Shown here in pieces: positions 5,052 through 21,049 of a stretch of DNA of 53,013 nt. A model generated the notes under the pieces. It was not told the origin of the DNA, searched no databases, and saw only the letters and a program-made list of their open reading frames with translations. Source of the stretch: Clostridia bacterium. Its GTDB lineage: Bacteria; Bacillota; Clostridia; UBA1212. Each line of letters opens with the position of its first letter. Positions within the stretch are counted from its first letter, which is position 1. Where the stretch lies: assembly GCA_017444825.1 (NCBI GenBank), contig JAFSVU010000039.1:1-53013 (forward strand), given 5' to 3'. A program made the translations under genes and the position numbers.

Positions 5052-6737
5052 TTAACTTTTAAACCGTCTAATTTCTTCCCTCATCAGATCCAGATAAAAC
5101 GACCCCAGCTTCTCGCTCGGCTCGATATCCTTCGAGTTCTCAAACGAGATCTGCTCCCCGAGGGTCCATTCGTTGAAGGAGACCACCAGCACGATCTTCG
5201 GGCCGATGAGGCGGGCGCGGGCCCAGGCCCTGCGGAAAGTGTCGCCGTTTTCCCGGAGGGCGGGGGCAATGTAGCCTTTTGTGCCGGGGTTCTTGCCCTG
5301 GCCGCGGTAGGCTGCGTTTACGGTCATGCACTCGGGCCGGCCGTTCAGCACCGTGAACGTCTGGGCACCGCGCTCCTCCCAGCTCCAGAAAATCTTTGAG
5401 ACCAATGTGTCACGGTCAAACAGGTTCCCCTGCTGGCCTACAAAGCCGGTGATCCAGCGGACCGTGAAGCGGTCGTCTTCGTAGGGGGACACGTTGTCCT
5501 GGAAAAAGGCCGGGGTGGCGGCGTAGCAGAGGAGGAGGGGCTTGCCCTCGTACTCGAAATACATATTGCGGTAGCGCTCATTGGCGATGTAGGTGTCGTA
5601 GATCTGCTGGGTCTTGGCTGCCATGCGGCCGTTTGCCAATGTGTCCTTTTCCCCGGATCCCTGCTCGTGGCCGGGGCCCGTGAAAATGCAGATCTTCGGC
5701 GCGCCGGGGATGTCAGCCCACACGTCGAACAGCGCTTCGGTGGCGTCCTCAATGGTGCGAAAATCAGCCCGTTTTGTGCGCATGGTGGCGGGGTCGTAGT
5801 TTACGTTGTTTGACCAGTCGACGAACACGAAATCAACGCCTGCGTCCCGAAGCCAGATGCCGTGCTGTTTTATGACGTTGCGGTCGGTGGAGGTGTAGAC
5901 GCCGAGCCATGGAAGGTCCCAGGTGTGCCCCTCGCCCCATTTCCAGTCTGACCTGAACCAGGTGGTGTAGGCGATGCCCACAAGCCTTTCGGATGGGTCG
6001 GTGGGGGGATAGAGTCCCGCGCCGGTTTTGTCGCATTCGATCTTCTTGTCGGTATAGATGCTTTGGTCGTAGGTGTCAAACAGCGCCTTTGCGTCCTCAA
6101 GGCTGTCTTTTTCGTTTTTCTCGATTGGGACCATGTGAAGTATATCCTCCGTTTTTTCGGTGAAATAGTTAAAAAGCAAGGCGACGTTCGATGCGTCCCC
6201 GTAGTATATGCCCCCGATCTGCTCGGGCTTTCTGAAGGGGTGGGTTGCGCCGTCGTATGTGACGGTGCAGTCGTTTAGAGATATCCGGGCATCGATGCCG
6301 ATATAAGTCAGCACGATAAAGCCGCTCTCTTCCCGGTAGTCTGCGCCGAAGGCCTTGGCGAGTCCCGAAAGGGGTGCGTAGACGATGCCGCCGATCTCCA
6401 CGGGAACGTAAGCGGGGCTGCCTCCGACGTATTCAAAGGAGACGTTGCCGCAGAAGCCGTAACACCTGTCAAGCTTTATAAAAACGTTCTTCCGAAGGTT
6501 GTTGAAATATTTGGCGGCCTTTGATTTTTTTGTGGCGATGGCGACGTCGTAATAGTCGTAGGAGTCGGGAAGGTCCACGGAGGCCGGGGTGATATCCGGT
6601 ATTTCAATGGTCACCTCAGGGACATCAGAGGGTTCTGAACCGGTGCTCCCCGGGTCCTTCGGAACACACGAGGAAAGGCCCAAAACAAGGGCCGAAAGAA
6701 TGACAAATATGATGAGCTTTGTGAGGTTTCTTTTCAT
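5052..6737 (-). CDS. Lipoprotein with glycosidase-like barrel (GH71/GH99/WbsX type)
   Basis: A 561-residue exported lipoprotein: hydrophobic signal with lipobox LSSC, Cys at 24, then an acidic Pro/Ser linker. Residues ~90-180 look like a copper-amine-oxidase N-terminal stalk domain (VPVEIGGIVYAPLSGLAKAF). From ~245 the protein resembles glycoside hydrolases of the GH71/GH99/WbsX kind: GIAYTTWFRSDWKW, then DAGVDFVFVDWSNN, and near the end SFNEWTLGEQ (NEW at 522-524), matching the NEW-x-E-type ending of that group. Substrate unknown; host or microbial glycans are likely. The ATG overlaps the end of the CotH gene upstream by 4 bases, so it is the last gene of a three-gene operon. Family assignment is by motif memory. 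Confidence 0.6.
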   Translation of the reverse strand: MKRNLTKLIIFVILSALVLGLSSCVPKDPGSTGSEPSDVPEVTIEIPDITPASVDLPDSYDYYDVAIATKKSKAAKYFNNLRKNVFIKLDRCYGFCGNVSFEYVGGSPAYVPVEIGGIVYAPLSGLAKAFGADYREESGFIVLTYIGIDARISLNDCTVTYDGATHPFRKPEQIGGIYYGDASNVALLFNYFTEKTEDILHMVPIEKNEKDSLEDAKALFDTYDQSIYTDKKIECDKTGAGLYPPTDPSERLVGIAYTTWFRSDWKWGEGHTWDLPWLGVYTSTDRNVIKQHGIWLRDAGVDFVFVDWSNNVNYDPATMRTKRADFRTIEDATEALFDVWADIPGAPKICIFTGPGHEQGSGEKDTLANGRMAAKTQQIYDTYIANERYRNMYFEYEGKPLLLCYAATPAFFQDNVSPYEDDRFTVRWITGFVGQQGNLFDRDTLVSKIFWSWEERGAQTFTVLNGRPECMTVNAAYRGQGKNPGTKGYIAPALRENGDTFRRAWARARLIGPKIVLVVSFNEWTLGEQISFENSKDIEPSEKLGSFYLDLMREEIRRFKS

Positions 6738-9382
6738 TTTTTTCTACATTCCACAATGATCTTGACAGCCTTGTCAATGTAAAGCTTTACGGTGCCCGAC
6801 TCGATCTCCTGGGGAGACAGCGACTTTAAAACGTTTCCGTCGTAGTCCTGATAGATCACGGAGCTTATCTGATAGTTTTTGCGGACCTTAAACTCCACCA
6901 CGATGTCCACCGGCCCGTCATTCAGCGGGATATAGTACGTGGCAGGGATGGAATTTCCGTCGATATAGGCTTTTTCGATGTGGGCGTACTTGAAGGTCAG
7001 GCAGGCTTCGTTGTTAAATTTGCTCCTGATAGCCGCGGCGTCCACTTTCATTTCGCTGAGGAAGGAGGAGAGAACGATGCCTTGGCGTTTCCTGACAAAC
7101 TCCCTGATGACTTCAATGCCATTGGCGTATTCCTGATCGCTCACTCCCCAGCGTTTTGCCTGAAGATAGTTGAATGGCTCCCTTTCGGCGACGATCTTAT
7201 CTAGCTCCGACTCCAGGTATTCAGGGGTCAGTATGTTTGAGCCCACCTCGTAAAACCGGTAGATGAACTTCTCACGGAACGCGTCGTTACCGAGCAGCTG
7301 GGCCATTATGGTGCCCACTACGCAGTGACGGCCGTACATGGCGCCCCAGATAGTCTTGTCGTAGGCGGTGAGATCGTCGTAGAAACCGACGCCAAAATCC
7401 ATGTCGAGAAGGGTGAAGTGCCACTTTGTGTCGTAATTTGAGGGGTCACCTTCGCCTGCTCTGTTGCGCCAGATCTTGATATTGTTTTCCGGCCAGTCCA
7501 CCGCGTTAAAGTACATACGGGAGACGTACATGTCGATGAAGGAGTCGAGATCCAGCTTTCCTGCCACGTAGTCAAAGTTTTTCTGCACGGAAAGGTCACG
7601 GGACCTGATGTATTCCATGAGGGTGTTGAAGGCGTCGGCGTCGCTGTCGAGCCCTGATGTGACCACAAATGGAGCGTTTTGGTTAGTGTGGACCTGGGAA
7701 TAGTCGCTTTCGATGAGGGCCACGTTGTCCTTGTCAATGCCGTGATGGGATTCCACGTAGTCCCCGGAGTAACGTTCGCGCACGTTGTACACGCCCCAGA
7801 AGCATCCGTTGAAGAATACGAGGGCGGGAGCGTATGCCATGGTGTCAAGCTTGAGCGTCCTCGAAACCCTCTGCATATAGGCGTCGCGGATGTAGGTGCG
7901 GCCGTAGTCGTTTCCGGAATTCCTGAGAAGAAGCCTGGCAAAATCAGTGATGCGCTGGCCTTTTTCGTTCACGGAATAACCCTCGAAAAGGTCGTAGTAG
8001 AGCTTGTCCTCCATGCCGCCGGACTCATTCTCGGATTTCTTGTAGAAGACCTTGAGGGACTTCATTGGCGCGCCTGAGGAACCGTGACCGCTGACAGAAA
8101 GCTCAACGTTTGCGCAGCCTGTTCTGGTGCCGGCTTTGTCGAACACTTCCATGACGCCAATGCCCCTGGGATTCGATATGTTCTCGGACCCGTAGTAGTG
8201 GTTGTAAAAACCGTTCTCGCCAATGACCTCCTCCGTGTCGATAGAGACCGACATGACGGTCACGTTGAACTCTTTGTAGAGCGGAGAAACAAAGTAGGAT
8301 GCGGAGAACACCTCCGAGTACTCGCCGTTCTTCTCGGAGCAGGCCTTGAATGCGTAGCAGCCCGGAAGCCTTGTGACGCCGTTCGGGGGATAGTAAGAGC
8401 GCCCCATCTCCTTGTACACGGCCCTGGTAAACTGGCCGATCTTCATGTTCGAAGTGTCCTCAAGGAGCAGGGGGGCCTTGTAAATCTTTCTTGTATCTGA
8501 AGTTTTGGGATCGGTGCCGTCCTCAGTGTAGTAAATGGAGGCGCCTTCCGCGGCTTTCATGGTGAGGTAGAACTGCTCACCGTACATGCCGGGAGCGTGG
8601 TCAAAATCCACCTCGTTCAAGGCGCACCTTTTTACGGCGCCCGCGGTCCCCTTGGAGTATTGGGGCAGTATGAGGCGGAGCTTTGCGGAAGTGGACTTAG
8701 TAAGGTCCACCGTCTCCCATCCGCTGTCGGAAGTGAGAGTGACCCTCACCGCGTACTTGTTTTTTGATAAAGCGCGGATGCAACCTGTGTCGAAGGTGTA
8801 CGAGTCCGTGGCTCTGAAATATGATACCGCGTTGCTGAATTCCTCTGGGAGGTCATCCGGGGCAGGGGGCACGGACGCGGGGCCGAGGATAAGATCTATC
8901 TCGCCTGCGTTTATCTCAACGTTCCAGAAATCGTCGCTGCTGTCTATGGAAATGATCTCGGAAGAGGAGTCGAAGCTGTCACTGTGGGCACATTTGATGA
9001 GATAAAAGCTGCCTGCGCCAATGACCGTATCTTTAAAAACGTAAGGCTTGTAACTGTTTATCGAGGGGCTTTTGTAATAAACGGCAAGGCCTGTGCAGTC
9101 CACCGGCTTTTCGCCCGAATTGTAAAGCTCTATGAAGCCGGAGGAAGTGGCCGCCTCTTTTTTTGCGCTGTTCCCGTAGATACGTGAAAAGACAAGACCC
9201 TCGTAGGGAGTCTTGTCAAAATCCCCGTCGTTATAGGACGCCGGCGTCTCCTCCGCAGGCTTTGCGGGGGTGGAGTCCCCGTTGTTTCCGGGATCCGCCC
9301 CGCAGCCTGAGGCCGCGATCAGAAGGACCGCAGCCATTATCAGGCAGAGAAGCTTTATAAAGAATTTGCCCCTGTTTGTCAT
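6734..9382 (-). CDS. CotH-kinase family lipoprotein with lamin-tail and chitobiase-type domains
   Basis: An 882-residue lipoprotein (lipobox AASGC, Cys 27). Domains in order: lamin-tail domain (~60-170), a chitobiase/hexosaminidase C-terminal-type Ig domain containing YYTEDGTDPKTS (~275-300), and a CotH kinase domain (~370-790). The CotH part shows LLLRNSGNDYGRTYIRDA near 485, the hallmark FFNGCFWGVYNVRERYSGDY, and the metal-binding-like LLDMDFG near 660. CotH of Bacillus is an atypical kinase that phosphorylates spore-coat proteins; here the signal peptide puts the domain outside the membrane, so the phosphate donor and target are open questions. The C-terminus is a short beta domain. It starts 8 bases after the stop of the larger paralog, with no clear Shine-Dalgarno, so it probably depends on translational coupling. 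Confidence 0.8.
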   Translation of the reverse strand: MTNRGKFFIKLLCLIMAAVLLIAASGCGADPGNNGDSTPAKPAEETPASYNDGDFDKTPYEGLVFSRIYGNSAKKEAATSSGFIELYNSGEKPVDCTGLAVYYKSPSINSYKPYVFKDTVIGAGSFYLIKCAHSDSFDSSSEIISIDSSDDFWNVEINAGEIDLILGPASVPPAPDDLPEEFSNAVSYFRATDSYTFDTGCIRALSKNKYAVRVTLTSDSGWETVDLTKSTSAKLRLILPQYSKGTAGAVKRCALNEVDFDHAPGMYGEQFYLTMKAAEGASIYYTEDGTDPKTSDTRKIYKAPLLLEDTSNMKIGQFTRAVYKEMGRSYYPPNGVTRLPGCYAFKACSEKNGEYSEVFSASYFVSPLYKEFNVTVMSVSIDTEEVIGENGFYNHYYGSENISNPRGIGVMEVFDKAGTRTGCANVELSVSGHGSSGAPMKSLKVFYKKSENESGGMEDKLYYDLFEGYSVNEKGQRITDFARLLLRNSGNDYGRTYIRDAYMQRVSRTLKLDTMAYAPALVFFNGCFWGVYNVRERYSGDYVESHHGIDKDNVALIESDYSQVHTNQNAPFVVTSGLDSDADAFNTLMEYIRSRDLSVQKNFDYVAGKLDLDSFIDMYVSRMYFNAVDWPENNIKIWRNRAGEGDPSNYDTKWHFTLLDMDFGVGFYDDLTAYDKTIWGAMYGRHCVVGTIMAQLLGNDAFREKFIYRFYEVGSNILTPEYLESELDKIVAEREPFNYLQAKRWGVSDQEYANGIEVIREFVRKRQGIVLSSFLSEMKVDAAAIRSKFNNEACLTFKYAHIEKAYIDGNSIPATYYIPLNDGPVDIVVEFKVRKNYQISSVIYQDYDGNVLKSLSPQEIESGTVKLYIDKAVKIIVECRKK

Positions 9383-9390
9383 ACAAAGAA

Positions 9391-12300
9391 TCAGTTGATC
9401 GTCACAGTGGAGAAGCCTGTCACTGCGCTTGTGTTGTTCTGGCCGTGCTGACCGTTGCTGTTATCGCCCAATATCTTGACCGAACCGTTGTTCATGAGGA
9501 ACGCGGAGAAGTTGTATCCCGCTGCCACCTGCTTCACGCCTGTGAGGCTGAGAGTGGAAGGGGTGCCGCCCGTCACAGCGCCGCCTATAGCGCCGCCCTG
9601 GTCAAGGCCGTACACGTATACCTGGCCGCTTTCCGTCACCATGAGCAGGTTCGAGAACATGATGGAGGCCTGCTTCACGCCCTTGTTCTTGAGTACTGGC
9701 GATGCGCCGTGGCTTCCTCCGCCCTGGGTGAAGCTTCCCACCTCACGCCAGCCTGCGTAGTAGACGTCTCCGCCCTCGGTGACCAGCACCAGATTGTGCT
9801 CGCCGCTCTCGATGTAGCTCACGCCGGAGAGGATCTTGTAGGGAGTGGTGAAGTTGTCCGCGGAGTCGTTGAACTTGTTCCACCTGCCGTCGCCCAGCAC
9901 GTAGCAGTTGCCATTGGCGTCAAGGTAAGCCGTGTTCCTGCGGCCCGCGGATATCATGGTGACTCCGGAGGCGATCTTCTGGAAGCTGTCAGTGGAGCCC
10001 TGGTAGTTGGCCGCGCCAAGCTGTCCGTAGGAGTTGTTTCCGATGCCGTACATGTCGCCGTTCTTGTCGAGCACCAGCAGATGGTCGTAACCGACGCTGA
10101 TGTCCACGGGATTTCCGTTATACTCCACGATTCCCCAGGATGAAAGATTGCCGCTTCTGCCCGCTGACTGTGCGGAGCCGCCAATGGAATATATCTCGCC
10201 GTCAAGGGTGAGTACCGCCGCAGCAATGTAGCTTGTGTTGCTGTTTTCGTAGTCGTTGCTGCTGCAGACAGAGATTATGGCCACGTTGTCCATGATGAGC
10301 CTGGGCTTTGTGACGTTGGCGGTGCCTGTGCCTGCTCCGAGTATGTTGTTTACGTTGCTGCCCCAGCCGTAGAGCTTTCCGTTTGCGTCAAGGTAGTAGA
10401 GCGTGCAGCCTGCCGCCGTGATGCCGGGATGTACCTTAAGGGAGGTGCTGCCGGAGGAATTCTTCTTTGTTTCCAGTGTCACGGTACCGGATTTCGTGGT
10501 AGTGAAGCTGGCGGAGGTTCCTGCCTTCCTGGTCTCGTTGCCGTTGTAGTCGGTGAATACGATGGCGGTCACAGTAAAGCCTTCCTTGGCTGTGGCGGTC
10601 ACTGTGAATGTGGTGGACTTGTCGAACTTGAAGTTCCAGCCGCTGCTTACGTTCTGGTTGTTCACCTTTACGGTGGCTCTCGTCTCAAGGTAGTCTACTG
10701 TGACGTAGTTTCCCGAGATGCTCATGAGGTATGCCTCGGTGACGCCAAAGTAACTGCAGAGGTATGAAATAACGTAGTTGTTGCGCTTCTGCAGGAAGTT
10801 TCTGATGGAGGCGACGCCGTTCCTGTAGGAGGTCCAGCTGGCTCCGTCCTTCGACCATCTGTCCACCTGAAGCTGGAAGATCTGATCTCTTCCCGCCACT
10901 ACGGTGTTGAGTTCCGCTTCCATAGTCGAGGGGACGTATATCTCGTTTACGACCTGGTAGAATCTGGCCATGAACATGTTCTTGAAGTCTGTGTTCTTGA
11001 TCAGCTTGTTCATGATCTTTGCCACAGCGCAGAACGTGCCGTTGATCCAGCCGAACCAGTTGCTGGAGGGACCCGTGTCGATGTTCGGGTAGTCAAGACC
11101 GAAGTCCGTGTCAAGGAGGGAGAAGCGCCACTTGGTGTAGCCCTTCGTCCTGTCTGCGGAGCCTGCTCTGTTCCTCCAGATCTTTATATTGTTCTCAGGC
11201 CAGTCACGGGCGCTGAAATAGATCCTGGCGATGTACATATCCACGAAGGAATCAATGTCGATCCTGTCTGCCACGTATTTGTAGTTTGCGGCGGATGTGA
11301 GCTCGTGGGAGTCGATCCAGTTTACGAGGGCGTTGAAGTCGTCCGCGTCATTGTCAAGACCGGAGGTCACCACGTAGGGGGCATTGGTGTTTGTGTGCAC
11401 CTGGGAGTAGTCGCTCTCAATGAGGGCCACGTTGTCCTTTTCGACGCCAAAGTGAGACTCCACGTAGTCGCCGCTGTAACGCTCGCGCACGTTGTAAACG
11501 CCCCAGAACTCGCCGTTGAAGAATACGAGGGCGGGAGCATAGGCCTGGGTGTCGAGCCTCAGGTTTCTGCTGAGACGCTGGATCATAACGTCTCTGATGT
11601 AGGTCATGGCACAGTCGTTTCCGGAGTTCCGTATGAGAAGACGGGAGAAATCGGTGATGGTCTGACCCTTGCTGTTTCTGGAATAGCCTCCGAAGAGGTT
11701 GTAGTACAGTTTACCGTCCATTCCGGCGGTCTCGTTGTTGGAGCCCTTGTAGTAGATCTTGAGGGACTTCATGTGCCAGCCGGATGAGCCGTGGCCGCTG
11801 ACGGAAAGCTCAACGTTCGAGATGCCTTTTCTGATGCCCTGGGGATCAAATACCTCCATGACGGCCATTCCTCTGGGGTTCGGGTCGTTGGTGGAGGGGT
11901 AATAATGGGTGTAGAAGCCGCCGCCTGTGCCGCCGTTCGTGGTGCCGGGATCGTCGCAGAGGACGCCCTTGTTGAGAGAAACGGACATAACGGTGGTCTT
12001 GTAGTTCTTGATCGCGGAAGAAACAATGTACGTGGAGGTGAATACCTCGGTGTTGGTGCTTCCGTTGGTGGCGTAAGCTTTTACGACCGTGCCGCCAATG
12101 ATATTGCTGACATTGGGGATGTAGGCCGAGTCGTTCGTTTTATTGGCAAGGTATTTTGTGGTCTCTCCGTAGCCCTTCTTCGTGGTGTCTGCCATGGTGA
12201 TGGCTGTGGAATAGAGCTTCCTCGTGGTGGAGGTCTTGGGATCCGAGCCGTCGGTGGTGTAGTAGATCTTATATCCGCCGGCCGCGGTCAGTTTGAGTGA

Positions 12301-13359
12301 GAATGCACTGTCGTAGAAGCCGGGGTCGTGGTCGAACTTGACCTCGTTCAGCATGCACTTTGTGATCTTGTTTTCGCCTTTGGAGGAGCGGGGCCCGATC
12401 TGGGAAAGGGTATATGAGTTCTGCTTTCCGAGATTCAAGGTGCGGTAGCCGCTGTCGGGCTGCATGGCGACTCTCACTGCCACCTTGGCTTTTGACATGT
12501 CAGTCACGTAGCCCGTGTCGAAGAACCAGGTGTCGGATGCGACAAAATACGAGACCTTATCGCTCACGAAGGCCGGCTCGGTGGAGGCGCCGGGCGCTTT
12601 GCTTGTGGGGGCGAGGATGAGGGCGATCTCCTTATTACTGATCGTCACGTCCCAGGTCCTGTCATAGCTTGTGATCTTCAGCATCTCGCTGGAGGTCTGG
12701 TAGTTTGCGCCGGCGTTGCAGCGGATAAGATAATAGCCGCCCGGGGCAAGGGTCACTGCGCCGAAATCAAGGGACTTATATGAGGTGTCGCCCTTGGTTT
12801 TGTAGTAGATGGAGAGCCCGTTCAGATTGATGCTGTTTATGGTGCTCGTATTGCATATCTCGATGAAGCTGTGTTCGCAGATGCCGTCCTTGTTTCCGCC
12901 GTTGCCGTACACCTTCGAGATTACGATGCCGTAAAAGGCGCTGGCAGAGACCTGAGGCGGAGGCGTGGGAGTGGGAGTCGCAACAGGCGTGGGAGTGGGA
13001 GTCACCTCAGGGGTTGCGGTGGCGTTCGGGTCCTCAGTGGCACCCGGATCCGGAGTTTCATCGGGATCGAGAGTATTCTCAGGGTCTATGGTGGCGCTTG
13101 GGTCCGGAGTCGCTGTGGGCGTTTCCGAAGGCTCTTCCGTAGCCGTTTCCTCCGGCACGTTTGTGGGTGTAACGGAAGGTTCTTCGGTCTCCTGACCTTC
13201 GGTCGGGGAAGCGGTATCTTCCGGGATATCTGTCACAGCGGGCTCCTCCGTGGGAAGAGAGGGCAGCTCTGTCGTACATGCCGCGGTGCCCGCCACCATG
13301 ATGATTATCAACATTATCGCCAATGCTTTTTTCAGGCTTGATGAGAAAACAGTTTTCAT
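9391..13359 (-). CDS. CotH-kinase lipoprotein with C-terminal RCC1 repeats
   Basis: A 1322-residue lipoprotein (lipobox GTAAC, Cys 28). A long Thr/Pro/Glu spacer (~29-140) suggests a cell-wall-spanning stalk. Then follow a lamin-tail domain (~145-240), a chitobiase-type domain with YYTTDGSDPKTS, a CotH kinase domain (~450-870; FFNGEFWGVYNVRERYSG, LLDTDFG near 749), a small beta domain resembling surface B-repeats (~900-975), and from ~988 a set of RCC1-like blades: YGWGSN, YGIGNNSYGQLGA, YVLGDG, VYGLDQGGAIGG, ILGDNSNGQHG. The RCC1 propeller is a protein-binding fold, plausible for substrate choice. The CotH part is closely similar to the next gene. It has a TATAAT box 75 bases upstream and a GGAGG ribosome site, and heads the operon 13359-5052. 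Confidence 0.8.
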   Translation of the reverse strand: MKTVFSSSLKKALAIMLIIIMVAGTAACTTELPSLPTEEPAVTDIPEDTASPTEGQETEEPSVTPTNVPEETATEEPSETPTATPDPSATIDPENTLDPDETPDPGATEDPNATATPEVTPTPTPVATPTPTPPPQVSASAFYGIVISKVYGNGGNKDGICEHSFIEICNTSTINSINLNGLSIYYKTKGDTSYKSLDFGAVTLAPGGYYLIRCNAGANYQTSSEMLKITSYDRTWDVTISNKEIALILAPTSKAPGASTEPAFVSDKVSYFVASDTWFFDTGYVTDMSKAKVAVRVAMQPDSGYRTLNLGKQNSYTLSQIGPRSSKGENKITKCMLNEVKFDHDPGFYDSAFSLKLTAAGGYKIYYTTDGSDPKTSTTRKLYSTAITMADTTKKGYGETTKYLANKTNDSAYIPNVSNIIGGTVVKAYATNGSTNTEVFTSTYIVSSAIKNYKTTVMSVSLNKGVLCDDPGTTNGGTGGGFYTHYYPSTNDPNPRGMAVMEVFDPQGIRKGISNVELSVSGHGSSGWHMKSLKIYYKGSNNETAGMDGKLYYNLFGGYSRNSKGQTITDFSRLLIRNSGNDCAMTYIRDVMIQRLSRNLRLDTQAYAPALVFFNGEFWGVYNVRERYSGDYVESHFGVEKDNVALIESDYSQVHTNTNAPYVVTSGLDNDADDFNALVNWIDSHELTSAANYKYVADRIDIDSFVDMYIARIYFSARDWPENNIKIWRNRAGSADRTKGYTKWRFSLLDTDFGLDYPNIDTGPSSNWFGWINGTFCAVAKIMNKLIKNTDFKNMFMARFYQVVNEIYVPSTMEAELNTVVAGRDQIFQLQVDRWSKDGASWTSYRNGVASIRNFLQKRNNYVISYLCSYFGVTEAYLMSISGNYVTVDYLETRATVKVNNQNVSSGWNFKFDKSTTFTVTATAKEGFTVTAIVFTDYNGNETRKAGTSASFTTTKSGTVTLETKKNSSGSTSLKVHPGITAAGCTLYYLDANGKLYGWGSNVNNILGAGTGTANVTKPRLIMDNVAIISVCSSNDYENSNTSYIAAAVLTLDGEIYSIGGSAQSAGRSGNLSSWGIVEYNGNPVDISVGYDHLLVLDKNGDMYGIGNNSYGQLGAANYQGSTDSFQKIASGVTMISAGRRNTAYLDANGNCYVLGDGRWNKFNDSADNFTTPYKILSGVSYIESGEHNLVLVTEGGDVYYAGWREVGSFTQGGGSHGASPVLKNKGVKQASIMFSNLLMVTESGQVYVYGLDQGGAIGGAVTGGTPSTLSLTGVKQVAAGYNFSAFLMNNGSVKILGDNSNGQHGQNNTSAVTGFSTVTIN

Positions 13360-13531: not shown

Positions 13532-13567
13532 AAAAAAATGGCGGGAACGCAGTCAAGCGTCCCCGCC
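13532..13567 (-). terminator. Rho-independent terminator after the Cys-rich gene
   Basis: Minus-strand stem GGCGGGGACGC / GCGTTCCCGCC (13557-13567 and 13540-13550, one G-U pair), 6-base loop, then a run of seven T (13532-13538). It separates the sensor/Cys-rich operon from the CotH operon. Confidence 0.85.
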
Positions 13568-13595: not shown

Positions 13596-16500
13596 TTACT
13601 TGTTTTCTGCCTGCTGCTTTTTCTTCCTTGTCACCACAATGACGACTATCACAACGGCGCCTCCGCAGACCAGCACTGCGGCAATGACAATGACCAATAT
13701 CCACCAGGGGAAGGCATTGGCGTTGTTCGGCTTAATGGAGTTGTTCACGTATCCGCATACGGTGCAGACGTTGCCGTCGGCGTATCTGTGGTCCGCTGTC
13801 TTGATCTTCGCTCCGCACTTGCAGTCCACCCAGTGCTGGGTATCGTTGTGGTTCCACTCGCCTCCCACGTGGTAGTCCGGATCGATCGGAAGGACCAGAT
13901 CCTCTGCGGTGACTTCGATGAGACCCTCCTTGCTGAGGTAGAACTTGCCGTTTTCGTCGGTGTAGTACTTCTTCATACCGGGCTCCATACATGTCGGGAT
14001 CACCATCGGGTGCTCGGTAAGCTTCTTTCCGCCGGCCTTAACGGCAGAGCCTTTCTTGTAGTGGCAGACTGTGCAGCGGTCGTCCTCGTCAAAGGTGTGG
14101 GGCCCGTTGTTTATGTGCTCTCCGCAGGCGCAGATGGTGAAGTGCTCGTTCTCATTGTAACCAATGAGGTCGCCTCCGATATGATTTGTCGGATCTATAG
14201 GCGTTTTCACCTTGCTCAGGCCGAAGGTCTCCGTGCCTTTATCGTCGCTTGATCTGGTGCCGCATTTTTCGCAGATATAGTGCTCTATGCAGCCTTCGCT
14301 CATACAGGTGGCGGCGACTGCGTCAACGTGAACAAAGCTGTGCTCACCCGCAGGTACGGTCTCCTCAACACTGAAGCCGCATATGTCGCACTTCTTGAGC
14401 TGCAGTCCTTCTTTGTCGCAGAAATAGCCGTGTTTTATTATCTCGTATGACAGGCTGTGCTCTGCCGGATCCGTCTGTTCTCCGCACACCGTGCAGTATT
14501 TGTAGTGGCCTTCTTCGATGTAATTCCAGTTTTCAGACCAGGTATGCTTCGCTTCACGCTCAAGACCGCACGTGTTGCAGAATCTGTCGCAGTCATTGTC
14601 GTAGACGTGGTCCGTCATGGGTATCGTCAGGTCGGTGACCTCCTTGCCGTCAATGAAAGTTCCTCCACAGCCAAGGCATATCTGATGGGCTTTAAGCCCC
14701 TCTGCGGTACAGGTGGCCGCATAGCCTTCCACGTTCTTGTACAGGGTGGTGACCGTTACGTCCTCCAGGTAGGCGGTCATGTCTTTTTCCCACCAATCCC
14801 AGCCTTCGGTGTCTCTGAATTCTATTTCGGCTCTGAAACGGCGGCCCTCATCCTCGGGTCCGAGTTTGTACGTTTTCTCATATCCGATGGAGAGGCTGGT
14901 GTCGTCGTCCACCCACATCACGTCGTACTCTCCCGCATCGAACCGGGCTATCTGTCCGGCTGTAAGCTCGTCGGAACGCTCGATATGAAGGGTGCCGTGC
15001 TGGCAATAACTTCCGACGATTACCAATTGGTGACTGCCGATTCCGCAGGTGGTGCAGTGTCCGTCGTTAAAGGTGTGCTTTTCTCTGTGTACTTTGCCGC
15101 ACCTGGTACAGGTCTCCCAGTGGTACCGGCCGTCTGCGTACCAGCCGTTATACGGCCCGTCGTTTGCGGATGCGTGTCCGATGCCGGAATCGCGTTCCAT
15201 AACTGTATACCCGCAGGTCTTGCAGCGGTAGACGATGACCGTCTTGTCACAGAGTTTGTTTATCGAAACCTGCTCGAATTCATGCTTTCCTTTGGTGTTG
15301 GGAGCCGGGAGGTCTTTCTCTTCCCTGTATGAGCAGCCTTCGGTGGTACAGTGCTTCCAGTGATAGGTTTTGTCGTAATAGTAGTCATCGCTTAAAGAGT
15401 GCGGCATCCAGCCGGAACTGTAAGGTATGTCTCTTGTATGGCCGCAGTCCATACAGACCAGATTTTCGTAGCATTTAACACAATTTCCGCTCCACCCTGA
15501 GAGCGCGTATCTGTGATTTCCGGGCGGGTTATATCTGGCATGACAGACCGTGCATTCTCTCCAATGGTATGTGCCGTCATACAATTTCAGTCCGTATGCG
15601 GAATAGTCGTGTGTAATTGCGTAATCATACCTCATCAATTCATATTTACTCAGTTTTCCGCAGACCCAGACCCATGTGTGCTCATTGTGTTTTGCTTTCC
15701 AGTCAATGGTAAAAGGCTCGGAATAGACGATCTTGCCGCCGCGTCTGTCATAGACCGCAAAGCGCCACGTAAGCTTCTTGCCCTGTGCCACGTAATCTTT
15801 AAATTTTCCGTCATATGCGCGTGACTCTTTATATAGCAGGCAAGGAAATACGTCAGAGCCTTTCTCGTAGCTCATGTCGTATTCTTTGTATCTGGTTGTT
15901 TTGAGATCGTTATGGTAAAAATATTTGAAAGTATTGTGCAGTTCAGCAACAGTCTCCGGAAGTTTTTCGTCGTCGAGAATCGGAAGTGCCGCTATCTGGA
16001 GATATCCCCATTTCGGAGACTCATCGGTACCTTCCTGGCCCACTTCCACATAGAAGGTTAAATATTTGTTATTGGGAAGAGACTCCATATCCGTGGGCTG
16101 TTTAATGAAATAGTATTCCGGCGGATCGACCTTCGGAATCGTTCTTACTTCCTGATATCCGCACTGGATGCAGGTGTTTTCTTTCCGCCCTGTCTTTTCT
16201 ATTGTTGCCTCCTCAAGGGTTCTCGTGACGAAATTGTGAGGCTGCTCTGTCACTGTGTAGTCGCATCCGGGGAAAATGCAATGGCCGTCGTGGGTTCCGT
16301 CGTCAACACACTCGTAAACAATGATGTGATGATCTTTGCCGTGGTTTGACATGTCAAGATCCTCGGGATCCGTTTCGTCGTCGAGAATGCAGTTCGGCAC
16401 TCCGTAGTATTCGCTGTTCTTCGCACAGCACTCCTCGCAAAGTCCGCAGTATTCACAGAAAGACAGGCCGAGTGCTTCTGTGCACCGTTCGCACTGATCG

Positions 16501-17375
16501 CAGAGCCAGTCCTCGGTAGCACAGCATTCAACACAATGGTCTCCGCCTGACTCGCATTGCCCAACCTCTTCCATACACTCGCCGCACACTTCGCAGTGTT
16601 CCCAGCACTCTTCACACCGCTCGCATGTTTCGCAGTATTCGATATCCAAAGCCCAGGTACAGTCGCCGCAGTTTTCGCATACATTTTCGCAGCAGTTTAC
16701 GCAGTGATCGCCTCCATCGTAGCACTGACCGACTTCGCCGTAGCACTCTCCGCAGTATTGGCAATGATAGCCGTTGTCGTAAGCGCACTGGAGGCAAATA
16801 CCGCAGGTTTCGCAAAGATCTTCTCCGGTGCAAAGCGTACACTCGTCGCACTCGGAGCAATAAAACTCTTCGTAGCATTCTATGCAGTGCACGCCGCAGG
16901 GAGCGCAGTCGTCGTCTTCGCCTTCTTCGTCGTTAAATATAACGTTGATCCCGCAGTGCTCACACATCGTGTTTGCGTCGTTATCGGCGTTTTCCCGGAT
17001 ACATTCTTCACACATCAGACCGTCTGAAGTCTCTTTGAGTTCCACGCAGGACTCGCATCTCATACACATGACGCAGTGCGGCACGTTGCCATATGCTTCG
17101 TCCACGCACGATTCATTGCATTCTTCACAATGAAATCCCAACTCGGTAGCACAAAGGTAGCACGCCATGCACTCTTCGCAGATGTTCGCGCAGCTTTCGC
17201 AGACAAAGCAATTGAAACATATCAGAACATCCTCGTCTTCCGGGTAATAAGTATCACACCAACTGCACTTAAATCCGTCAGCGTGGACGTGTCCCGGTCC
17301 CTCCGGAAGGATAGGCGCTAACAGCGTGAACACCATCGCCAATGCCAGCAGCGCGGCAAACACTCTCTTTCTCAT
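13596..17375 (-). CDS. Giant Cys-rich exported protein with CxxC repeats, membrane-anchored
   Basis: A 1259-residue protein with a signal peptide (~1-32) and a C-terminal membrane helix (~1222-1248) followed by a basic tail RKKKQQ, so nearly all of it is outside the cell. Residues ~36-335 hold about 63 Cys, mostly as CxxC pairs spaced like back-to-back zinc ribbons (e.g. CENCGDC, CEVCGECMEEVGQC), very acidic between them. Residues ~390-560 are Cys-poor and globular. From ~560 come looser repeats of the form HW-x-CTxCG with a following HTF/H, as seen in Firmicute surface proteins. It could bind zinc or other thiophilic metals, or be a disulfide-rich scaffold. No enzyme domain is recognised. 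ATG has AAAGGGA upstream, only 30 bases after the response-regulator stop, so it is probably co-transcribed with it. Confidence 0.75.
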   Translation of the reverse strand: MRKRVFAALLALAMVFTLLAPILPEGPGHVHADGFKCSWCDTYYPEDEDVLICFNCFVCESCANICEECMACYLCATELGFHCEECNESCVDEAYGNVPHCVMCMRCESCVELKETSDGLMCEECIRENADNDANTMCEHCGINVIFNDEEGEDDDCAPCGVHCIECYEEFYCSECDECTLCTGEDLCETCGICLQCAYDNGYHCQYCGECYGEVGQCYDGGDHCVNCCENVCENCGDCTWALDIEYCETCERCEECWEHCEVCGECMEEVGQCESGGDHCVECCATEDWLCDQCERCTEALGLSFCEYCGLCEECCAKNSEYYGVPNCILDDETDPEDLDMSNHGKDHHIIVYECVDDGTHDGHCIFPGCDYTVTEQPHNFVTRTLEEATIEKTGRKENTCIQCGYQEVRTIPKVDPPEYYFIKQPTDMESLPNNKYLTFYVEVGQEGTDESPKWGYLQIAALPILDDEKLPETVAELHNTFKYFYHNDLKTTRYKEYDMSYEKGSDVFPCLLYKESRAYDGKFKDYVAQGKKLTWRFAVYDRRGGKIVYSEPFTIDWKAKHNEHTWVWVCGKLSKYELMRYDYAITHDYSAYGLKLYDGTYHWRECTVCHARYNPPGNHRYALSGWSGNCVKCYENLVCMDCGHTRDIPYSSGWMPHSLSDDYYYDKTYHWKHCTTEGCSYREEKDLPAPNTKGKHEFEQVSINKLCDKTVIVYRCKTCGYTVMERDSGIGHASANDGPYNGWYADGRYHWETCTRCGKVHREKHTFNDGHCTTCGIGSHQLVIVGSYCQHGTLHIERSDELTAGQIARFDAGEYDVMWVDDDTSLSIGYEKTYKLGPEDEGRRFRAEIEFRDTEGWDWWEKDMTAYLEDVTVTTLYKNVEGYAATCTAEGLKAHQICLGCGGTFIDGKEVTDLTIPMTDHVYDNDCDRFCNTCGLEREAKHTWSENWNYIEEGHYKYCTVCGEQTDPAEHSLSYEIIKHGYFCDKEGLQLKKCDICGFSVEETVPAGEHSFVHVDAVAATCMSEGCIEHYICEKCGTRSSDDKGTETFGLSKVKTPIDPTNHIGGDLIGYNENEHFTICACGEHINNGPHTFDEDDRCTVCHYKKGSAVKAGGKKLTEHPMVIPTCMEPGMKKYYTDENGKFYLSKEGLIEVTAEDLVLPIDPDYHVGGEWNHNDTQHWVDCKCGAKIKTADHRYADGNVCTVCGYVNNSIKPNNANAFPWWILVIVIAAVLVCGGAVVIVVIVVTRKKKQQAENK

Positions 17376-17405: not shown

Positions 17406-18035
17406 TCAGTGTTTGTCTTTTATTACTATTCCAAGGCCTCTCGCCTCGGAGACCAGCTCCGTGCGTGTCTTGAAACCTGTTTTTTCCATAAGATGCTGGA
17501 TGTGGCTCTTGACGGTGGCCACCGAAATGAAGAGCCTTTCGGCGATCTCGGCATTGGTGTCGCCCGTCGTAAGCTCCTTGAGCACGTCCAGCTCACGGTC
17601 CGTGAACTCGTGGTTGGTTGCATTGCCAATGCGGATCAGGGGCGTTTCGTCGGGATAGATATGTTCCCCCGCCATGGTCCGCTCCATCACGTCCAGGATA
17701 CTGTCCTTCTGACCGTCCTTGTACCAGAAGGAATCGACCCCGATCTGCCTTGCGCGGGAAAGCCACGAATACTCCGGCATGGAGGTCACGATAATGACCT
17801 TGATATCGGGAAAATCCCGCTTGATCTCTTCTGCCGCGTCAAGCCCGCTGGAGTCCAGCTCCGTCATGACGTCCATCAGTACCAGGTCCACCTCGCCGCC
17901 TTTGCAGACTGCGGGTGCGGCCTTGGCGTTTGACACCGAAAGGAGATGTGTGAAGCGGTCGCTGGAACGGATATATATCTCAAACAGTTCACGCGGAATA
18001 TCCTGGTCTTCCACGATCAAGACTTTGTAAGCCAT
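17406..18035 (-). CDS. LuxR/NarL-type response regulator
   Basis: About 209 residues from the ATG at 18035, chosen because GGAGG lies 8 bases before it and the protein then starts at the receiver strand MAYKVLIVEDQ; longer frames would add an unrelated N-terminus. The receiver has the acidic pair (ED), phospho-Asp in DLVLMDVMTE, the TS switch in IIVTSM and Lys in WYKDGQ. The C-terminal HTH (TDRELDVLKELTTGDTNAEI, then SVATVKSHIQHLM) is a NarL/LuxR type. It is the third gene of the sensor operon and the likely output arm for the kinase encoded just upstream. Its targets may include the surface-protein genes that follow, but no binding site is identified. Confidence 0.9.
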   Translation of the reverse strand: MAYKVLIVEDQDIPRELFEIYIRSSDRFTHLLSVSNAKAAPAVCKGGEVDLVLMDVMTELDSSGLDAAEEIKRDFPDIKVIIVTSMPEYSWLSRARQIGVDSFWYKDGQKDSILDVMERTMAGEHIYPDETPLIRIGNATNHEFTDRELDVLKELTTGDTNAEIAERLFISVATVKSHIQHLMEKTGFKTRTELVSEARGLGIVIKDKH

Positions 18036-18113
18036 TTGAATTCCTCCACGGATAAATACAGATTTATTATAAATGATGAGGGGTGACTTCGGCATCAGCC
18101 GAAAGAATGATTT

Positions 18114-19352
18114 TTATCCGGTCTTTGGGATACTAAGAGACAAAACAAAGGTTTTGTCGGAAGAAACGGAAACGGATGCTCCCTGTTTTTCCGCGAGGCG
18201 TGCAAGGTTCGCAAGGCCTCCGGAAAAGCGAACGTCTCCTTCGGGCAGCCTGCCGTTGTTTGAAAAACGGCAGTAACAGTAAAGGTCGTCTTCTTCGAAA
18301 TTAACGGACATATCCGTCGCGCCGGCGTGCTTCACCGCGTTTATGACGGCCTCTCCCGCAGCGGAGAAGATGAGCTTTCGCTGCTCCCCGGACAGTGCCT
18401 CGGGGACCGGCTCCTGCCATGAAACGTTCAGCTTTAAAGCGGATGCGAGGTCCCTGATATCCGGGATGTCCCTGACGCCGGACACTTCGGCCGCCTCCCT
18501 GCAGAGGAGAAGGGCGTTCCGGGCCCAAAGGGAGAATATGCGGTCGATCTCCTCAGTGTCTGTGCTTTTTGCGGCCGAAGTGAGGAGCATAAGGCCGTTC
18601 ATTTCGTCGTGGATATTGATCTTCGCCTGCAGGATCTCTCGGTGGCGTACGCTCTCGTCAATGCTGAGATAATACTCGCGGAGCTCATTGTTGAGCTGTG
18701 CCAGCTCCGCCCGGTCCTTTTCCAATTGGCGTGTATGGGCATACTCATCGGTGATGTCGGTGGCGGTAATTTCGTGAAGAGTCTCGCCTTGAAGGACGAT
18801 GTCCCTGAAAGAGAAGCGCCAGACTTTGCCGGATACGTTTTTGATACCGCCTGATGCCGCCTCCCGGAAATGGTTTCCGTTTAGAAGGGGAGCGCCGGTC
18901 AGCGAAAGACAGATATCGTTGATGCAGATGTTTGAGAAAAGCACTCTCCCGTTGTCCCGGTAACAGCAGACTCCGCAGGGTATCTTGTCGAGGAACAATT
19001 TGATGGCGCCGGGTGTGACGGCGGTCCTGCCGAAATGGATATTGTAACCAATGAGAACGCCCGAAGCGGCGGTGAGGGCCGAGAAGACAACAAGCCACAC
19101 CCACAGGTCAAGCTCTCCCGCAAAGCGGCTGACCTCCGTCAGACTTTCGGTTCCGGAAAAGAGGGAAATATCGAATATCATCTGCCAAATGAGGTAGACG
19201 GGGATGAAGAGAACGGCCGCGGGGAGCATGAGAGCGTACCTCTTTTTGGAGGCGGCGTGCACTCCGCAGGCGATATTGGCGATGCAAAGGGCCAGTGCCC
19301 AAAGGGCGAAAACGGATCTTGTGAGAGAAGGAAGAGCCTGGAAAGAAATCAT
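18114..19352 (-). CDS. Membrane sensor histidine kinase, NarX/DesK type
   Basis: A 412-residue kinase. Three membrane helices lie in ~10-110, then a PAS-like sensor (~120-205), a helical dimerisation part with a candidate phospho-acceptor in KINIHDEMNGLML, and an ATPase domain with the N-box EAVINAVKHAGA and a G-box FSGGLANLARLAEKQGA. This pattern fits kinases that pair with NarL-type regulators, as encoded next. The ATG overlaps the stop of the upstream 7TM gene by 4 bases. The PAS region has a cluster of Cys (IPCGVCCYRD, SNICINDICL), which could make it redox or metal sensitive; that idea is an inference. Confidence 0.85.
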   Translation of the reverse strand: MISFQALPSLTRSVFALWALALCIANIACGVHAASKKRYALMLPAAVLFIPVYLIWQMIFDISLFSGTESLTEVSRFAGELDLWVWLVVFSALTAASGVLIGYNIHFGRTAVTPGAIKLFLDKIPCGVCCYRDNGRVLFSNICINDICLSLTGAPLLNGNHFREAASGGIKNVSGKVWRFSFRDIVLQGETLHEITATDITDEYAHTRQLEKDRAELAQLNNELREYYLSIDESVRHREILQAKINIHDEMNGLMLLTSAAKSTDTEEIDRIFSLWARNALLLCREAAEVSGVRDIPDIRDLASALKLNVSWQEPVPEALSGEQRKLIFSAAGEAVINAVKHAGATDMSVNFEEDDLYCYCRFSNNGRLPEGDVRFSGGLANLARLAEKQGASVSVSSDKTFVLSLSIPKTG

Positions 19353-21013
19353 TGGTTCACCTCCCCCGGGATCGTAAAACAGACGTACGTGTCGCTGTCC
19401 TCGGTCTGGGTCTCGACGTCCACCGACACCAGTGCCAGCTGAGCCTCAAGGTCCTCCGGCATACCCTCGGAAAGTTCCTCGAACGTGAGCTTAAGGGTCA
19501 CTTCGGAACCTGAGGAGAGGTTTGCAAAAACCCCTTTAAATAGAGGATAATTGAGCTCGATGATCGTCTCGAAAGCCTCGAAAACGGCAATGGCCGCGTC
19601 CGCTCTGACAGAGCAGTCCGCATTGATTATAGACTCGCCGGGAATGCCGCAATAGTTTAGACAGCGCAGCACCTCCGACACCGAAAGGCCCAGTTCCCCC
19701 GCCTCAATAAGCTCGCTCTCCTGGGAGAGAAGGGTGAGGTTTGCGTAACGTTTTATGTATGCCCCGAAGAGCATGATGCGTCTCTGATAGTCCTGCTTGA
19801 GCGCCGGATCATTGGAGGCCTTTGCGGTCTCTGCCAGCTGCTGGATAAGCTGGGACTGCCTCTGGGTGCGCCTGGCGATCTCGTCATACACCAATGTTCT
19901 CTGGATGACCTTGGTCTGTTCCTCCTTAAGCTCGTTGCGGAGCCTTACCAGCTCCACCTCCTGCGCCAGACCCTCCTTCGCCTCCGCCAGTTCCCCGTTC
20001 AGCCTGTCGATCTCCGTCATGTCATCCAGCCAGAAACCAAAGCCCCCCGGCACCTCCATTTTATTCAGCACCGTGTGATCGTCAATGCGGGAGCCGCTTT
20101 CGGCCTTAAACTGTTCCTCCGTGAGTGGCGATGAGAAATGGGAGGCGTAGACCGTGGTACCTTTTTTGTCGGTGATCTGGGCAGAAATCGAGAAATGTGC
20201 GAACAGCTTGCCGTAGTCCGTATTTGTCGGAATAAGTCCAAGCTGCATGCAGCACTCCAGCACCGCCGCAGCCGTAAACATAAGGGTCTCCGGGAATTCG
20301 ATTATGTAGGAGCCGTTCAGCTTCGGCATTTTATCCGTCACCAGAAGTACGCTGAGAACCGCGCCGGTGAGGTAAGGGATCAGAATGACCCAGGAGCTCT
20401 TTTTTGAGCTGGTGACACGGCACTTTTGCACCAGGATCACTATCGCGGCAAGGGAGAGTGCATAGTGCCAGATGTTTACCACGTAAAACAGCCAGCCGTG
20501 GCTGTAGTCGTTGTCCCAGTTCACGAAATTTTCACTGAATCCGAAAGCCTGTCTGTGGAGGTCGTTTGTCATAACCAATACCACAAGCACCAATGTGACC
20601 GCCGTCGTTATGATCCAGGCCGTTTTTGTCCGCACGTTGGGTTTATAAGAGATGAGCGTCGCCACGTAGAAAAGGAGCAAAGGTATCAGAAGGATGGGCA
20701 CGTAATACATGTACCAGGTGTGCCTTGCAAGCACACCGATCTCCGACACTGCGCTGTACTTGATGCCCCTAAGCAGTATCAGCAGCAGGCACATAAACGA
20801 AAGGGCTTTCATGGCCTTCGGCAGAGCCCCGACAGGTGTAAGTCTGTAGGAATAGTAAAAAACGAGGCAGACCGAGAGGACCAGAAGGTAGATCGTGGAG
20901 AGGTTCCGCATCGGAAACGCGTCGGGAATTATGCTGGCGCAGGGGATTATGTTAAGCAGCAGGAGCAGCCCGTAGACCGCAAGCCGTTTAAGGGTCGTCT
21001 TAACTTCATTCAT
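19349..21013 (-). CDS. 7TM sensor protein with degenerate kinase-like C-terminus
   Basis: About 554 residues from the ATG at 21013, chosen for the AAAGGAGG 7 bases upstream. The N-terminal ~270 residues form about seven to eight membrane helices, like the 7TM input region of some histidine kinases. A PAS-like stretch (~285-355) and a coiled coil with EVELVRLRNELKEEQ follow. The C-terminal ~150 residues have the layout of a kinase core but I cannot find a clear phospho-His motif, N-box or G-box. It may be a pseudokinase that regulates the true kinase encoded next with a 4-base overlap. First gene of the operon, with an extended -10 promoter upstream. Confidence 0.7.
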   Translation of the reverse strand: MNEVKTTLKRLAVYGLLLLLNIIPCASIIPDAFPMRNLSTIYLLVLSVCLVFYYSYRLTPVGALPKAMKALSFMCLLLILLRGIKYSAVSEIGVLARHTWYMYYVPILLIPLLLFYVATLISYKPNVRTKTAWIITTAVTLVLVVLVMTNDLHRQAFGFSENFVNWDNDYSHGWLFYVVNIWHYALSLAAIVILVQKCRVTSSKKSSWVILIPYLTGAVLSVLLVTDKMPKLNGSYIIEFPETLMFTAAAVLECCMQLGLIPTNTDYGKLFAHFSISAQITDKKGTTVYASHFSSPLTEEQFKAESGSRIDDHTVLNKMEVPGGFGFWLDDMTEIDRLNGELAEAKEGLAQEVELVRLRNELKEEQTKVIQRTLVYDEIARRTQRQSQLIQQLAETAKASNDPALKQDYQRRIMLFGAYIKRYANLTLLSQESELIEAGELGLSVSEVLRCLNYCGIPGESIINADCSVRADAAIAVFEAFETIIELNYPLFKGVFANLSSGSEVTLKLTFEELSEGMPEDLEAQLALVSVDVETQTEDSDTYVCFTIPGEVNQ

Positions 21014-21049
21014 CCCGGCGCCTCCTTTCCCGCACATTGGTTTTTCTTC

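Follow-up and report, generated by a model that had tools for sequence, protein, structure and literature searches.

Two surface proteins of gut anaerobes come closest to the protein described here. The IgAse of Thomasclavelia ramosa (9qa6) is a large, surface-anchored enzyme with 24 Cys, none of them in disulfides, and zinc sites were predicted in its domains ZBD1 and ZBD2 (PMC12237041); these ZBD sites (sites 4-8) are thus themselves predictions. The VSPs of Giardia, which inhabits the gut lumen, are exported and Cys-rich with frequent CXXC motifs and a C-terminal transmembrane anchor, and zinc binding has been reported for them (PMC2996952). Exported proteins of Gram-positive bacteria are generally Cys-poor, a tendency termed 'cysteine exclusion', and the CxxC motifs of two Gram-positive membrane proteins, Llmg_0524 and Llmg_0526 of Lactococcus lactis, were shown to bind zinc (PMC4628341). 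A further point of comparison is provided by LIM and other treble-clef zinc domains, in which CxxC knuckles occur with interleaved His.

The window, meaning the whole stretch of 53,013 nucleotides analysed here, comes from a bacterium of the ruminant gut and encodes a protein that, by analogy, may work most like the Giardia VSPs and IgAse-type surface proteins, yet it is neither a VSP nor an M64 enzyme. Its features, all on the minus strand, are as follows.

13596..17375 (-): Cys-rich surface protein, 1,259-aa ORF, with homologues in ~15 other genomes
17280..17375 (-): predicted signal peptide covering aa 1-32, with MRKR, a hydrophobic stretch and VHA|DGF; hydropathy peak at aa 5-23
16380..17279 (-): Cys-rich N-terminal domain (aa 33-332) with 63 Cys, matching no known family
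16122..16340 (-): first of the H..CxxCG modules (aa 346-418), predicted to be zinc-ribbon-like from an AF2 model with fold neighbours NrdR/eL42 (Z 2.4-2.9)
15693..16124 (-): putative Ig-like stretch, aa 418-561; from a QPxD...YQWY-type stretch that homologues have at this position, no Pfam match
13731..15683 (-): H..CxxC(G) module array, aa 565-1215; from a motif list and similarity to the zinc-binding domains of the T. ramosa IgAse
13632..13712 (-): predicted C-terminal transmembrane helix, aa 1222-1248; hydropathy maximum 3.29, followed by the tail RKKKQQAENK

Like the IgAse, the window protein is large, Cys-rich and (by prediction) surface-anchored in a gut anaerobe, and both carry H..C..CG modules: a phmmer search with aa 667-1259 against the PDB retrieved 9qa6 (E 3e-7) in two stretches, 9qa6 855-935 and 1074-1139. 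His2Cys2- or HisCys3-type ligand motifs are present in the C-terminal modules. Unlike the IgAse, the window protein has no Pfam match to the M64 IgA peptidase catalytic domain, and the enzyme in turn lacks the 63-Cys N-terminal domain. The sequence-only reading had described zinc-ribbon-like repeats. This description suits the C-terminal modules, given their IgAse-like sequence and the NrdR/eL42 neighbours of one of them; the N-terminal domain looks more like chained LIM/treble-clef units than like ribbons (at non-significant scores). The accompanying statement that zinc ribbons are normally intracellular was too strong, as a secreted protein of a gut bacterium is already known to carry such modules, where they are predicted zinc sites (PMC12237041). 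The likeness to Giardia VSPs is one of kind only: the window protein lacks the CRGKA end and the CxxCHxxCxxC motif, and it is the product of one gene without a switching repertoire. The Lactococcus proteins have a single CX2CX10CX2C site each, as opposed to the long chain in the window protein, and no homology to them was seen.

Layout and composition of the Cys-rich protein

Hydropathy analysis gave two peaks, one at the signal-like N terminus (aa 5-23) and a strong one near the C terminus (aa 1229-1247) before the basic tail, and homologues with an intact 5' end have signal-like N termini as well. A motif scan found no LPxTG at the C terminus. Thus, the window protein is predicted to be exported and anchored by its C-terminal transmembrane helix, in line with the earlier description of a membrane-anchored exported protein in an anaerobe, a host assignment that is also supported.

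Of the 111 Cys in the protein, exactly 63 lie within aa 33-332, matching the previously estimated number for the first 300 mature residues. Most are arranged in CxxC pairs, as had been noted: aa 33-340 contain 37 CxxC motifs, compared to 12.6 +/- 2.9 (maximum 27) in 10,000 shuffled sequences of equal composition, indicating that the order of the Cys, and not their amount alone, is special in this domain. The N-terminal domain consists of 20.5% Cys and is acidic (78 D/E vs 7 K/R, pI 4.05), whereas the neighbouring exported proteins contain 0.9-1.5% Cys. All eight His directly precede a Cys, forming HC pairs beside CxxC knuckles, and CxxCxxCxxC runs are present. With 20% Cys, nearly all of them retained, this exported domain is a clear exception to 'cysteine exclusion' in Gram-positive bacteria (PMC4628341).

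Distribution and relationships of the family

A homologue search recovered a rare but real family with the same layout in ~15 other genomes, showing that the window gene is no artefact of a single assembly. One relative within the genus has the protein at 60% identity; its contig is that of L010, Mageeibacillus sp. UBA1243. The core was found in 5/31 genomes of the order, in 4/391 genomes of the sample of the class Clostridia (~1%), and in 3/301 genomes of the Bacteroidaceae sample (~1%); the named carriers are mostly MAGs from the gut of sheep, goat, deer and yak. A search of Lachnospiraceae with the core profile gave no match, an uninformative result as the profile also misses the known member L019. 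Proteins from the two phyla can be aligned over their whole length (L015 vs L083, 26% over 1,290 aa, E 6e-86), indicating a single protein family rather than compositional chance. In the maximum-likelihood tree, the window protein and L010-L013 form a clade (support 100/100) and the three Bacteroidaceae proteins group together (100/100), with an uncertain branching order at deeper nodes. The family has likely moved between Bacillota and Bacteroidota, as far as sequence comparison can tell. IMG/VR viral contigs and phage and plasmid records contained no match to the family and thus no sign of a mobile-element origin.

Members share a common plan of a signal peptide, a Cys domain with 60-110 Cys, an Ig-like stretch, and H..CxxCG modules, the latter part being much shorter in L019 than in other members. 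Variability is found at the C-terminal end, which is a transmembrane helix with a basic tail in the window protein, L010, L011, L029 and L030, dockerin-like in L015, L017 and L018 (Dockerin_1 E 0.002 in L018, below the cut-off), PNTG-like in L031, and a Bacteroidales-type tail in L081-L083. Modular surface proteins commonly combine one body with different anchors. Through their dockerin-like repeats, the clostridial L015, L017 and L018 would be attached to partners that bear cohesins and not to the membrane. A second repeat type, CxxCGLCxxC...C-x-HGxC...[SD][WY]xxHxCxxC, occurs in L014-L016, L018, L019 and L029-L031 and is absent from the clade of the window protein. The genome of the window also encodes a second surface protein (L009 285-2633 (-), G000:C21), which has H..CxxCG modules and a transmembrane tail and lacks the Cys-rich N-terminal domain.

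At one Bacteroidaceae locus, an M64 IgA-peptidase-like gene (L014 12802-15102 = L083 824-3124) is located two genes after the Cys-rich gene. A link to M64 IgA peptidases was considered and dropped because this gene is absent at the two other Bacteroidaceae loci.

Metal or disulfides in the N-terminal domain

The N-terminal domain matched nothing in Pfam, NCBIfam (curated cut-offs) or PHROGs (E up to 0.1), and when PDB sequences were searched with a profile of the core alignment, the best E was 0.096, from ferredoxin-type and zinc-finger rows that we rejected as pattern matches. The literature, within limited coverage, yielded no bacterial protein of this kind. This agrees with the initial impression that no characterised protein has such a layout. 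Judged by sequence comparison, the N-terminal domain represents a family not described before and common to two unrelated groups of gut bacteria, and the C-terminal half adds a new member to an already known module type. Pfam and NCBIfam lack a model for the domain, leaving its carriers currently unannotated.

Conservation is concentrated in the Cys and His residues. Within the five-member clade, the domain has kept 62/63 Cys and 7/8 His unchanged, compared to 19/78 acidic and 46/159 other residues. Across 11 complete or nearly complete N-terminal domains from both phyla, 43/63 Cys positions but only 6/245 others are conserved to at least 90%, figures that may be slightly inflated since the aligner favours Cys. 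A scaffold with a variable surface is expected to show this pattern of kept Cys/His and drifting remaining residues, and an enzyme is not. The window protein has no recognised catalytic domain. It also shows no recognisable signature of ligand or carbohydrate binding, which counts against a binding role.

Two AF2 models of the domain (mean pLDDT 77.8 and 75.5; pTM 0.40 and 0.45) place short bridges and helices where the CxxC runs lie, although they were built from 11-14 sequences and their zinc-finger-like turns may come from the CxxC pattern alone. The nearest structural neighbours are zinc treble-clef domains at non-significant scores. For the second model, the top Foldseek rows are nearly all zinc domains (E 0.05 or worse), with tandem LIM first (E 0.05-0.4, best 0.054), followed by PHD, RING and FYVE; no significant match to the models was found in the viral and PDB libraries. 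The best VIA-align Z scores of 3.5 and 4.0 (the latter to the ClpX zinc-binding domain) do not imply a novel fold. LIM domains differ from the domain described here in being intracellular, eukaryotic and recognised by Pfam, and their spacing CX2CX16-23HX2CX2CX2CX16-21CX2[CHD] has 0 matches in it, nor is there a Pfam LIM match. The loose RING C3HC4 spacing matches three times in this Cys-dense domain; Pfam gives no RING match, and fold Z scores are <=3.5. The fold neighbours therefore support zinc-finger-like local geometry only, within the reach of the models.

Cys-dense exported domains elsewhere are usually disulfide-bonded. The Cys of the window protein might accordingly pair after export as in eukaryotic EGF-type proteins, with no involvement of metal, and the conservation of the Cys fits disulfides equally well. 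We nevertheless consider this unlikely. DsbA (PF01323) and VKOR (PF07884) were detected in 0/6 carrier genomes, which belong to gut anaerobes, whereas the controls were positive (8/14 for DsbA and 3/14 for VKOR), an absence that leaves room for disulfides formed spontaneously or by other enzymes. The CxxCxxCxxC runs and the HC pairs at CxxC knuckles resemble metal-ligand geometry, and the IgAse with its related modules shows no disulfides. Thus, metal, most likely zinc, probably holds the Cys-rich domain instead of disulfides.

Metal binding could also be the purpose of the protein. As an extracellular buffer or scavenger, it would take up zinc, iron, copper or cadmium in a metallothionein-like manner for storage or protection; so acidic a domain, with 20% Cys, would be able to take up a large amount of soft metal, and its conserved residues are almost exclusively Cys and His. 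However, metallothionein CxC clusters number 0 in the domain, the distribution of the family is rare, the long stalk of Ig-like and H..CxxCG parts would be left unexplained, and no metal transporter or metal-resistance gene was recognised beside any homologue when the neighbourhoods were read by eye, making a buffer quite improbable. An electron-transfer or redox scaffold carrying iron-sulfur clusters or haem is less probable still, although Fer4_6 matches 2/14 N-terminal domains weakly (best E 0.022). The window domain contains 0 multihaem cytochrome c motifs (CxxCH) and 0 bacterial ferredoxin motifs (CxxCxxCxxxC[PG]). Folded Fe-S proteins are normally exported by Tat, and the signal peptide of the window protein has no evident Tat motif.

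The regulator cassette and the role of the protein

Upstream of the Cys-rich gene, the window encodes a set of putative regulatory proteins, and a terminator-like structure follows the gene.

17406..18095 (-): LuxR/NarL-type response regulator; Pfam Response_reg and GerE, ~31 bp ahead of the Cys-rich gene
18114..19352 (-): histidine kinase-like protein with a weak HATPase_c match
19349..21037 (-): protein resembling a 7TM sensor kinase, with a HisKA_7TM match
13540..13567 (-): intrinsic terminator-like hairpin; 11-bp stem and T run directly after the Cys-rich gene, separating it from CotH genes

The 7TM kinase, the second kinase, the regulator and the Cys-rich gene look like one transcription unit. 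Rfam found nothing in the window, and alignment of the spacer between regulator and gene gave no conserved element. The whole cassette order is kept at L010, where a regulator orthologue (84%) lies upstream, and a regulator orthologue (57%) adjoins the Cys-rich gene alone, without kinases, at L019; the latter was rejected as a complete kinase-regulator cassette because its upstream 722-aa ORF lacks a kinase domain. Within the genus, the regulator is present in 2/6 genomes, the only two that encode the Cys-rich protein. This restriction, together with a unit that runs from the 7TM kinase through the Cys-rich gene to the terminator, would suit a sensor arm that relays the redox or metal state of its Cys domain to the adjacent 7TM kinase. 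Against this, at seven homologous loci whose upstream region is intact no such cassette lies nearby, and the cassette is itself found without the Cys domain, so neither needs the other, and we regard a sensor arm as quite doubtful. The link between cassette and protein is probably regulatory; it is local, and neither obligate nor general.

Cassette relatives also occur in G038 and some Lachnospiraceae. A large exported protein is encoded at most two genes after the cassette at L052, L072, L073, L075 and L077, and at 8/13 loci in all (raw count). The exported proteins that follow cassette relatives carry LRR, InlB-B, Big or SH3 domains, often with H..CxxCG modules, which suggests that the Cys domain occupies the place taken elsewhere by likely binding domains. 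At L074, L076 and L078, cassette relatives are followed not by surface proteins but by predicted proteins with four CxxC and no evident signal peptide.

The differing anchors of the family and the occurrence of the same regulator family before other large exported proteins point to an adhesin or receptor. Among the roles initially proposed, this is the best fit, and metal store, redox scaffold and sensor found no specific support. We give about an even chance to the window protein being a receptor or adhesin of the cell surface, made under regulation, in which metal (probably zinc) staples the distal module into a scaffold with a variable surface. Following export, it would be held by its C-terminal transmembrane helix, with the H..CxxCG modules and the Ig-like stretch serving as a stalk. 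Along the distal 300-aa tip, short Cys/His sites would follow one another as a chain and hold metal, most likely zinc, with up to ~17 four-ligand sites if all conserved Cys and His were used. These sites could act as fold staples in place of disulfides in an anaerobic, DsbA-less bacterium, and the variable surface between them may carry the binding function, directed at something in the ruminant gut, while the upstream sensor-kinase/LuxR cassette would set the timing of production.

A bolder proposal, which we put forward tentatively and rate somewhat below an even chance, is that the family represents a new class of extracellular metal-stapled scaffold. It would be a bacterial counterpart of the VSPs, in which a receptor tip owes its rigidity to a chain of ~15 to 30 zinc sites and not to disulfides, letting anaerobes build Cys-rich surface proteins despite 'cysteine exclusion', and it would have passed between Bacillota and Bacteroidota in the guts of ruminants. 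If the domain is metal-held, it shows a route by which anaerobes may obtain rigid, variable surface proteins without disulfides, and it offers a defined, expressible domain for testing the metal-stapling idea.

Beyond the Cys-rich gene and its terminator, the window encodes two consecutive exported CotH-kinase proteins (9391-13359 and 6734-9382, both (-)), the first with C-terminal RCC1-type repeats and the second with a lamin-tail-like domain. The pair is adjoined by a lipoprotein gene (5052-6737 (-)) with a weak glycosyl hydrolase 99 match.
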